Assembly (NCBI RefSeq): GCF_000769655.1
Contig: NZ_CP008887.1
Coordinates: forward strand, 1,984,001-2,048,000
DNA: 64,000 nucleotides
Direction of reading: 5' to 3'
Origin: Thermococcus eurythermalis
Lineage (GTDB): Archaea > Methanobacteriota_B > Thermococci > Thermococcales > Thermococcaceae
The notes beneath the pieces are model-generated. The model worked only from the letters and a program-made list of their open reading frames with translations. It was not told the DNA's origin and did no database searches. Position 1 is the stretch's first letter. Every line of letters starts with the position of its first letter. Positions 22,158 to 25,491 of this stretch are shown one piece after another. The position numbers and the translations under genes are program-made.

Positions 22158-23210
22158 TCAGATAACCCCCGTGATTTTAGCGGCTTTCTCGGCCGCCTCG
22201 CGGGTAAGGCCGTCCTTCCCAAGGATTGTGTAGCGCTCGGGCCTTATCGTGTGGGCAATCGTGAGGGCCTCGATAACAATCTCTGGGTCAATCCCAAGCT
22301 CATATGCAGTAGTTGGGGCGCCAACCCTCTTTAAGGTTTCCCTAACGCGCTCCCACTTCATGCCGTGGAGGTATGCCATTATGATGGTACCCAGTCCGGT
22401 CTGCTCGCCGTGTAGGGCTGGTTTGTCGAGGAGCATGTCGAGCGCGTGGCTGAAGAGGTGTTCCGCACCGCTCGCGGGCCGTGAAGAGCCGGCAATGCTC
22501 ATCGCAACGCCCGTCGAGATTAGGGCCTTTATGACCTTCCTCACGCTCTCCTCGTTGCCGAGTCTGATTATGTCGGCGTTTTTCATAACCATCTTGGCGC
22601 TCATGAGGCTCAGCGAGGCCGCGTACTCGCTGTAGTATTCCCCTTTTATCCTGTGGGCCAGCTGCCAGTCCCTAACGGCAGTCAGGTTGCTTATTGTGTC
22701 CCCAACTCCAGCCGCGAGGTAGCGGTAGGGTGCCGTTTTTATGACCTTGACATCTGCTATGACGGCTATTGGGGGCACCGCCTTAACCGAAGTTTTCGTG
22801 CCCAAGTCCCTTATTGAAGCGTTTGCGCTCGCTATGCCGTCGTGAGACGCCGTTGTGGGAAAGCTTATGAAAGGAATTCCCGTTTTAAAAGAAGCGAGCT
22901 TGGCGACGTCTATTATGCTCCCGCCCCCAACAGCGATGACCCAGTCAATACTCTCGTCCCTTATCACGCCGGTAGTCTTCTCGACTTCCTCCATCGTCGC
23001 GCCCTTTTTAACAGTGAGCGAAACAACTTCATACTCCGATTTAAGGTTGTTCTCAACGTCTTTGCCAGCTATCTCCTTTGTTTTAGGCCCGTACAGGATT
23101 AGAGCCCTCTCCCCAAGGCCGAGCCGTCTCGCAACGTTTACGACCTCGCCCTTTAGGTTCTCGCCGAGCAGAACCTCGCGGGGAAGCTGCATTAGGTGCA
23201 ATCCTTTCAT
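22158..23210 (-). CDS. egsA: sn-glycerol-1-phosphate dehydrogenase
   Basis: 350 aa, iron-containing-alcohol-dehydrogenase fold. NAD(P) site VGGGSIIDVAK, then PFISFPTTASHDGIAS, the metal ligands in AGVGDTISN, GAEHLFSHALD and ALHGEQTGLGT. It reduces dihydroxyacetone phosphate to sn-glycerol-1-phosphate, the backbone of archaeal ether lipids. AGGGGTGGGAGA precedes ATG 23210. Its upstream region contains one of the 37-bp repeats discussed below. Confidence 0.96.
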   Translation of the reverse strand: MKGLHLMQLPREVLLGENLKGEVVNVARRLGLGERALILYGPKTKEIAGKDVENNLKSEYEVVSLTVKKGATMEEVEKTTGVIRDESIDWVIAVGGGSIIDVAKLASFKTGIPFISFPTTASHDGIASANASIRDLGTKTSVKAVPPIAVIADVKVIKTAPYRYLAAGVGDTISNLTAVRDWQLAHRIKGEYYSEYAASLSLMSAKMVMKNADIIRLGNEESVRKVIKALISTGVAMSIAGSSRPASGAEHLFSHALDMLLDKPALHGEQTGLGTIIMAYLHGMKWERVRETLKRVGAPTTAYELGIDPEIVIEALTIAHTIRPERYTILGKDGLTREAAEKAAKITGVI

Positions 23211-23234
23211 TCTCCCACCCCTAACCTCTCGGAA

Positions 23235-23271
23235 GGAAAAGCTTTAAGGCTATCGGAAGGACCGTCTATGG
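23235..23271 (+). repeat. 37-bp direct repeat, copy A
   Basis: Begins GGAAAAGCTTTAAGGCTATC and matches copy B at 24638 with two mismatches in 37. It lies upstream of the DUF4143 ATPase. Copy B is the promoter/leader of the DUF63 gene, so copy A looks like a duplicated former promoter. Confidence 0.85.
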
Positions 23272-23359
23272 CGACCTTAAAAAGTCCGGAGACTTCCTGG
23301 GTTCTTTGGAGAGCCAGCATGGCTTAACTCAAGGGGTTCAATTTTGGTCTTTTAAATAG

Positions 23360-23382
23360 GGAAATATTTAAATAATATTTCC
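23360..23382. promoter_or_regulatory. Inverted repeat over the core promoter of ATPase 1
   Basis: GGAAATATT-TAAAT-AATATTTCC is a perfect 9-bp inverted repeat with a 5-nt centre. It ends 14 nt before ATG 23397 and overlaps TTTAAATA-type TATA sequence, the place where a repressor would block TBP/TFB or RNA polymerase. Confidence 0.65.
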
Positions 23383-23396
23383 TCTCATAAAAGACT

Positions 23397-24650
23397 ATGA
23401 TTGACAAAGATTTAACCCTCCAGTACCTGGCGGACTTCCAAGAGAAGAAGCTCCCAGAAACCGTTGAGCGTGAATTGAGAGTTCCCCTAAAGAGCGAGCA
23501 AATCATAACCCTAATCGGGCCGCGGCGGAGCGGGAAGACCTTCTACTTCTACCAGCTCATTAAAGAACTTCCGCGCGAGGACGTTCTCTACATAGACTTC
23601 GAGCATCCCATCTTTGAGGGATTCGAGCCAAAGGACATCATGGACGTTCTTAAACTCCATCGTGAGGCCTTTGGCGAGCCGGTTTACATCTTTCTCGACG
23701 AAGTTCAAGCTGTCAAGGACTGGGAACGAATGGTCAGGTATCTCCACGACGAGGGGTATTCAGTTTTCGTAACCGGCTCCTCCTCAAAGCTCCTCTCTAT
23801 GGAGATAGCCTCAAGGCTGAGGGGAAGAACGCTGACCTACACTATGCTCCCCTTCTCGTTTCGGGAATTCCTGAGGGCGAGGGGATACCACATGAGACGA
23901 CCTCTGAGCTCAAAGCGGGAGGCCGAGCTTAAGGCCCTCCTCAGGGAGTACCTCGAGTGGGGAGGCTTTCCAAGGGTCGTTCTTGAGGATAACGAGACGA
24001 TTAGGGAGAAGCTCCTCGAAGAGTACCTTGACATGGTTCTCTACAAGGACGTCGTGGAGCGCTACGGCGTTAGAAACCTCCACGTGATGAAGCTCCTCCT
24101 CCGCTCGCTGATGCGCTCCTTCGCCAAGGAGTTCAGCGTTCATGCCTTCTACAACGCCCTCAAGTCCCAGGGAATAAAGGTCAGCAAGGGAGTTCTCTAC
24201 GAGTACCTCAGTTACCTTGAGGATTCCATGAGCGTCTTTTTGGTGAAGAAGTTCAGCTACTCCCTAAAAACCTCGGAGCTTTCAATTCCAAAGGTTTACC
24301 CGGTTGATGCCGGCTTTTCACGGCTCTTCTCGTTCACACCGGACACTGGCAGGCTCATGGAACTCGCGGTGTTCCTCGAACTGAAGAGACGGGAAGCGGA
24401 GGTTTACCACTACAAGAACCACAGGGAGGTTGACTTCGTGATAACTAAGAGAGGCCAGCCCGTCGAGCTGATTCAAGTCACATACGCGCTGGACTCTGGA
24501 GACGTAAGGTCGAGGGAAGTCGAGGCCCTGAAGTCTGCCGGCAGAAAACTGGGCGTGAAGAACCTGACTGTGATAACGTGGGACTACAGAGACGAGAAAG
24601 ATGGAATCCGCTTCGTTCCGCTCTGGGGCTTCCTCACGGAAAAGCTTTAA
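23397..24650 (+). CDS. AAA ATPase with C-terminal DUF4143 (ATPase 1)
   Basis: 417 aa. Walker [12 protein letters not shown], Walker B VYIFLDEVQAV, sensor [12 protein letters not shown], then the DUF4143 region with a winged helix (KSQGIKVSKGVLYEYLSYLE) and a PD-(D/E)xK-like end (HYKNHREVDFVITKRG followed by VELIQVTYAL, where the usual Lys is Gln). A paralogue sits at 34517-35806. The family is common and variable in Thermococcales; its role is not established. The stop codon lies inside direct repeat copy B, so the gene and its promoter occupy exactly the space between the repeats. Confidence 0.88.
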   Translation: MIDKDLTLQYLADFQEKKLPETVERELRVPLKSEQIITLIGPRRSGKTFYFYQLIKELPREDVLYIDFEHPIFEGFEPKDIMDVLKLHREAFGEPVYIFLDEVQAVKDWERMVRYLHDEGYSVFVTGSSSKLLSMEIASRLRGRTLTYTMLPFSFREFLRARGYHMRRPLSSKREAELKALLREYLEWGGFPRVVLEDNETIREKLLEEYLDMVLYKDVVERYGVRNLHVMKLLLRSLMRSFAKEFSVHAFYNALKSQGIKVSKGVLYEYLSYLEDSMSVFLVKKFSYSLKTSELSIPKVYPVDAGFSRLFSFTPDTGRLMELAVFLELKRREAEVYHYKNHREVDFVITKRGQPVELIQVTYALDSGDVRSREVEALKSAGRKLGVKNLTVITWDYRDEKDGIRFVPLWGFLTEKL

Positions 24651-24674
24651 GGCTATCGGAAGTACCGTCTTTGG
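24638..24674 (+). repeat. 37-bp direct repeat, copy B
   Basis: Second copy of the repeat, 1403 bp after copy A. It contains the last codons and stop of ATPase 1 and ends 7 nt before the DUF63 start, supplying that gene's AAAGCTTTAAGGC TATA-like element. Confidence 0.85.
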
Positions 24675-24681
24675 TGGTCGA

Positions 24682-25491
24682 ATGGGCCTTGAAGAGTTTT
24701 TTCAGCGCTATTTCATTGACCCAATAAAGTACAATCAGGGCTACAACGCCGTGAACACGCTCGTCTATTCCATAATCCTCGGCATCGCCGTCCTGCTCCT
24801 CCACAAGATGCTCAAGAGAATGGGTATAAAAGTTGACGAGCGCTTCTTCGTCGCCCTCATGCCCTACATAATCCTTGGCCCGCTGATGAGGAGCATAACG
24901 GACATAGGCCTGCTCCCGAGGACGTACCTAACAGTCAGCCCCGGTGGTTATTTCGTCATAGCGGGCTTTGCCATAGCGTCCCTCCTGACTGTCTGGAGGC
25001 ACCTCGGGCCCGATGAGAAGCTCTACCCAATCTACCGCGACTTCGGGTGGGTGCTCGTCGCGGGACTGCTCTTCATAATGGTGATCAACTGGAACAGGGT
25101 CTCGGTTAGGTGGGAATACTTCAAGTACTTCCTCCCAGCCCTCCTCGTCTCCGAGGCCGTTATATGGGCCCTTTCAAAGAAGCTTGAGCTAGTTAGGAAA
25201 AACAGGACTCTCTTCTACACCCACTTCTACGACGCAACAACCACGTTTGTTGGAATCCAGTTCTTCGGGTTCTGGGAACAGCACGTCCTCGCGAGGACCT
25301 TGATGAACCTGCTTGGAACGCCCGCCGTTATGTACCTGGAGAAGCTCGCCGTAATAACCATCGTCGTTTACGTCCTCGATAAATTTATGACTGACGAAGA
25401 CCCCGAGCTTATTAACTTCGTCAAGCTGACAGTCTTCATTCTCGGGTTCGGGCCCGGGACGAGGAACGTGCTCATAACTCTCCTGGGGTGA
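24682..25491 (+). CDS. DUF63 family membrane protein
   Basis: 269 aa from ATG 24682 (GGTGGTC just upstream). It has about seven or eight membrane segments and the DUF63 features FIDPIKYNQGYNAVNTLVY at the N-terminus, LGPLMRSITDIGLLPRTYL and THFYDATTTFVGIQFFGFWEQH. The family is confined to archaea and has no known function; the conserved His/Asp residues (HFYDATTT, EQHV) suggest a catalytic or metal-binding membrane protein. Its promoter is repeat copy B. Confidence 0.85.
   Translation: MGLEEFFQRYFIDPIKYNQGYNAVNTLVYSIILGIAVLLLHKMLKRMGIKVDERFFVALMPYIILGPLMRSITDIGLLPRTYLTVSPGGYFVIAGFAIASLLTVWRHLGPDEKLYPIYRDFGWVLVAGLLFIMVINWNRVSVRWEYFKYFLPALLVSEAVIWALSKKLELVRKNRTLFYTHFYDATTTFVGIQFFGFWEQHVLARTLMNLLGTPAVMYLEKLAVITIVVYVLDKFMTDEDPELINFVKLTVFILGFGPGTRNVLITLLG

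Follow-up and report, generated by a model that had tools for sequence, protein, structure and literature searches.

The stretch of DNA analyzed here (the window, 64 kb) comes from Thermococcus eurythermalis. Its genome (G000) is nearly complete, with a main contig of 2.12 Mb, and its named relatives are Thermococcus. An ATPase gene lies in the window between egsA and a DUF63 membrane protein gene, and is flanked by two copies, A and B, of a 37-nt direct repeat (Table 1). A repeat search found the copies to be identical at 35 of 37 positions and 1403 nt apart from start to start, as an earlier sequence-only reading of the window had described. No other direct repeat within 8 kb in the window is 28 nt or longer and exceeds 80% identity, and ~1e-12 such pairs would be expected by chance in 3 kb. 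The 37 bp make up one complete core promoter, from the BRE to approximately the DUF63 transcription start, as estimated from the TATA box. The same reading had the ATPase, its promoter and its stop codon fill the 1403-bp period. The ATPase reading frame does fill the insert, but its last two residues and its stop codon lie in copy B. The TATA box of copy B is made up of the last codons and the stop (AAG CTT TAA), such that the stop codon (24648-24650) forms the TAA of the DUF63 TATA box GGAAAAGCTTTAAGG.

Table 1 Features of the egsA-DUF63 interval (window coordinates).
Feature	Position	Strand	Basis and remarks
egsA, NAD(P)-dependent glycerol-1-phosphate dehydrogenase, left neighbour	22158..23210	-	NCBIfam NF002022 equivalog, E 9.9e-162
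Repeat copy A	23235..23271	.	Core promoter block, BRE-TATA to ~DUF63 transcription start; putative egsA promoter, minus strand
Spacer between copy A and ATPase promoter	23272..23359	.	Among 94 family genomes, homology in the four filled genomes only
ATPase promoter, near-perfect palindrome GGAAATATTTAAATAATATTTCC over TATA box, possible operator	23360..23382	+	Sequence; conserved upstream of orthologues
Inserted ATPase gene, AAA_14 + DUF4143	23397..24650	+	Pfam; PADLOC PDLC04787 E 2.2e-107; AlphaFold pLDDT 90
Repeat copy B	24638..24674	.	DUF63 promoter, BRE-TATA to ~transcription start; overlaps ATPase 3' end
DUF63 membrane protein gene, right neighbour	24682..25491	+	PF01889 E 5.5e-84

The ATPase (417 aa) matches Pfam AAA_14 (E 1e-35) and DUF4143 (E 3e-18), and residues 25-415 match the PADLOC candidate defence family PDC-S01. 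Like the other members of that family, it is an ATPase encoded by one gene, and its C-terminal domain would be of the PD-(D/E)XK type. PDC-S01 is described as ATPase plus PD-(D/E)XK; it is patchy in distribution, horizontally transferred, enriched in Archaea and largely unvalidated for defence (PMC12988326). The ATPase core is intact, with invariant G41, R43, R44, G46 and K47 together with L100, D101, E102 and Q104 (Walker A/B). Residues E344, D346 and Q360 of the C-terminal domain are also invariant and, taken with the family description, could point to a PD-(D/E)XK-like nuclease fold. The lysine of the ExK motif is absent, its usual position reading QVT (ELIQVTY), and nuclease activity of this domain is therefore doubtful. 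The AlphaFold model is confident, and the nearest solved structures are the archaeal ATPases SSO1545 and PABY2304 (2fna and 2qen). Defence is a candidate role for the window's ATPase, and we found no literature on DUF4143 in Thermococcus. The palindromic ATPase promoter is conserved upstream of orthologues in four genomes (G020, G038, G043 and G084) and is doubled in G020. Its position over the gene's own TATA box suggests autoregulation. Other TATA-flanking palindromes, of the type GGTAC...GTACC, are found at ATPase paralogues (loci L109, L110 and L113).

To follow the locus across the genus, we examined 61 genomes, of which 5 were not scorable and 54 showed the gap at both ends. The ATPase is missing from the gap in 49 of the 54, where the two neighbours are spaced 63-142 bp apart and, in most, a single copy of the block is present. 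Four genomes (G000, G050, G009 and G012) have the gap filled by the ATPase with identical junctions. A larger insert of 4.6 kb, containing a kinase gene and an ATPase gene, occupies the same gap in G020, and in G038 and G043 the ATPase precedes DUF63 on contigs that end within the adjoining kinase gene. The kinase gene beside the G020 ATPase (L123:7972-11124) encodes a 1050-aa beta-propeller plus Ser/Thr kinase, and similar genes precede the ATPase in G038 and G043. Most genomes have a 23-nt core of the block a single time, in front of DUF63, and G000 and G009 have it twice. In G009 the two copies agree at 37/37 positions, and G031 and G053 have this same sequence at their empty sites. The locus shows a clean insertion in which the target block became duplicated, and its ATPase gene was acquired, as had been proposed. 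Neither empty sites carrying both repeats nor an ever-present gene with divergent repeats was found. A promoter on each side of the ATPase would also result if slippage or unequal exchange had first duplicated the block in tandem and the ATPase had then entered between the copies. A genome with two copies and no ATPase is absent among the 49 empty sites, which makes this order of events very unlikely.

We characterized the promoter geometry in the 40 empty genomes with one TATA box. The distance from the TATA core is 35-37 bp to the DUF63 start in all 40 genomes, and 26-36 bp to the egsA start (26-28 bp in 32/40). Judged from these distances, the box is placed as expected for archaeal transcription starts in both directions. 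Since one TATA box stands at start distance from both genes, the simplest reading is that egsA and DUF63 looked to a single shared promoter before the insertion. The single-TATA empty sites thereby support the earlier proposal that the locus was once a simple divergent promoter. A precedent is found in Pyrococcus furiosus, where symmetric BRE-TATA-BRE elements work in both directions, the two starts of one tested example being separated by 49 bp (PMC6640164). These promoters likewise have one symmetric TATA box and starts in both directions; they have been discussed mainly as a source of antisense RNA, whereas here the element would serve two divergent genes. Copy A of the window precedes the egsA start by ~35 bp on the opposite strand, and in the corresponding empty sites its equivalent is the only TATA-like block upstream of egsA. 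Given a shared ancestral promoter, egsA would now have copy A as its promoter and DUF63 would have copy B, leaving neither as an orphan. The assignment of copy B agrees with the sequence-only reading, as the block precedes DUF63 in most Thermococcus genomes. That reading had also called copy A an orphan, which is not borne out, its single-copy equivalent being found at promoter distance from egsA in the 40 empty sites.

Comparison of the window with G050 gave an identity of 97.5% for the insert and of 86.0 and 83.5% for the flanks (Fisher p 9e-39). At third codon positions, identity is 95% in the ATPase, 73% in egsA and 65% in DUF63. Thus, the insert moved horizontally between the window's species and the G050 lineage. 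On the left, the last difference between the two genomes is at 23193, and none occurs across 23194-23300. On the right, differences end after 24627, are absent from 24628-24657 and restart at 24658, inside copy B. Since the change in identity falls at the repeats, the transferred unit is bounded by the repeated block. The 3' end of egsA (22158-22400) is 99% identical between the same genomes, with surroundings at 81-91%, and is a separate recombination tract involving these two lineages. The empty genome G031 nests within the filled clade in a tree of the surrounding region, and its flanks resemble those of G012 and G009 up to the block. The ATPase was probably lost precisely from G031 through the repeats; the alternative is that this genome never gained it.

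The distribution could also be explained by old vertical inheritance, if a kinase-ATPase-DUF63 arrangement were ancestral in the genus and mostly lost, the repeats being a relic. The ATPase-DUF63 junction is indeed common to three distant lineages, with ATPase identities between them of 76-78%, not far from those of the neighbouring genes. However, this explanation needs very many independent scar-free losses that restore a spacing of about 63-65 bp genus-wide. It also conflicts with an insert far younger than its flanks, as seen between G000 and G050, and an old duplication would not be expected to leave identical repeats. We regard it as quite improbable.

Inspection of related ATPases placed the repeat in a wider context. 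Local alignment of upstream against downstream flanks at 111 related ATPase loci in the genus detected flanking repeats only at the four egsA-DUF63 copies; L154 was excluded as a short-contig extraction artefact, and L156 (score 19.5) was weak and not convincing as a repeat-flanked locus. The G020 ATPase, 76% identical to that of the window, also sits between egsA and DUF63, and the 4.6-kb insert as a whole is not flanked by a repeat. In the sister genomes of G020 (G006 and G008), egsA and DUF63 each have a TATA box of their own, implying that an insertion between the promoters in this lineage would harm neither gene. In G000, G020, G038 and G043, the ATPase gene ends with its stop codon inside the TATA box of DUF63, and the four ATPases form a group apart from the copies at the ppcA (G084) and rnhB (G054) loci, with an SH-like value of 0.84. 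The sharing of this ATPase-DUF63 junction by genomes whose ATPases group suggests that it arose before the repeats did. As it recurs in distant lineages without the repeat, the repeat appears to depend on the promoter layout of the recipient and not on the inserted DNA. In a second group of DUF4143 ATPase genes (L112, L114, L115, L148, L151, L152 and L158), too, the stop codon falls within the TATA box (TTTATAA) of the gene that follows, and this following gene begins with a zinc-ribbon-like sequence.

Both a target-site duplication and a single-copy empty site are present at the egsA-DUF63 insert, as at insertion sequence (IS) elements, MITEs and integrative elements. The structure could thus have been left by a mobile single-gene cassette integrating site-specifically at the DUF63 promoter, via a tyrosine-recombinase-like att site or a transposase target duplication, with the enzyme supplied in trans. 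The perfect 37-bp duplication of G009, the identical junctions, the scar-free empty site of G031 and the movement of a repeat-bounded unit between species are consistent with such a cassette, and the same final structure would be expected if a circle with a single 37-mer had integrated site-specifically. On the other hand, the insert is filled by the ATPase reading frame and contains no recombinase, transposase or integrase. It has no terminal inverted repeats (inverted-repeat score 7.0, shuffled mean 7.4) and no extrachromosomal copy in its own genome. Relatives of the ATPase on plasmids, phages and viral contigs are not close (at most ~36% identity or none). The right end of the unit would fall within the ATPase coding frame, and the absence of repeats both around the related G020 ATPase and at all but four of the 111 loci counts further against a cassette. 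The duplication differs from those of IS elements, MITEs and integrative elements in its unusual length of 37 bp and in coinciding with a core promoter, as well as in the lack of an enzyme, of terminal inverted repeats and of repeat-flanked relatives elsewhere. We therefore consider a mobile cassette unlikely. Of the two origins offered by the sequence-only reading, a recombination-made duplication around an acquired gene stands, and a general DUF4143 cassette with target-site duplication does not.

Taken together, we consider it probable that a PDC-S01-type ATPase was gained by recombination in a shared promoter block, with a promoter left on each side. Before the insertion, one near-symmetric BRE-TATA block would have driven both neighbours. 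A single-gene AAA ATPase of the PDC-S01 type would then have entered the divergent intergenic region horizontally, the incoming DNA recombining within this short, strongly conserved block. The right junction is shared with G020, G038 and G043, and the right end may have recombined through homology with the promoter of DUF63; in related lineages, the 3' end of the ATPase gene is already joined to this promoter. The left end would have joined illegitimately, immediately beyond the point in copy A where DUF63 transcription starts. A comparison with 94 family genomes gave homology to the 88-bp spacer at this end only in the four filled genomes, and no donor was found; the tail of the kinase gene was rejected as its source, showing no resemblance by eye. 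The surviving product would have one full core promoter to the left of the insert (copy A, used by egsA) and another to its right (copy B, used by DUF63). An insertion without duplication would cut one neighbour off from its promoter, and selection would thus retain only products that leave egsA a promoter, which would account for how far the repeat extends. Subsequently, the two copies may have acted as homology arms in the transfer between the window's species and a G050-like lineage, and probably also in the precise loss in G031. Marker replacement with 40 nt of flanking homology has been reported in P. furiosus (PMC3462420). A CAA to GGA change is seen in both repeat copies of G000 and G050 relative to G009 and G012 (GTA in copy B of G000). 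Its presence in both copies suggests gene conversion between them or transfer of the whole unit, and it counts against the favoured explanation, which must invoke one of these or separate events.

The proposed route resembles homology-facilitated illegitimate recombination, in which a homologous anchor is paired with an illegitimate end, foreign DNA is gained, and native sequence is displaced or retained beside the insert (PMC5361080). This process has been described in Acinetobacter, Pseudomonas and Streptococcus and proposed for Vibrio T6SS arrays. The present case differs in that it would be archaeal, with a short promoter block as the anchor and the shared promoter as the retained duplicate, and we infer it from the products. 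It also differs from other PDC-S01 genes in that the insertion site, the empty site and the promoter duplication are resolved, with defence a candidate function for gene and family alike.

These findings indicate that direct repeats around a gene are not always the footprint of a transposon, and that what looks like a target duplication can arise as a side effect of recombination combined with selection acting on a shared promoter. The promoter-duplication model is testable in genetically tractable Thermococcales. The locus provides a resolved case of gain and loss of a candidate defence gene in archaea without integrases, with empty and filled states, transfer across species and a probable loss. 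It is possible, though we lean somewhat against it, that single defence-type genes naturally dock at the short, conserved bidirectional promoter block in Thermococcus, which would offer homology arms, expression of both neighbours and reversibility without a recombinase. If so, conservation of the block would supply homology arms between species, and the repeats would make acquisition reversible.
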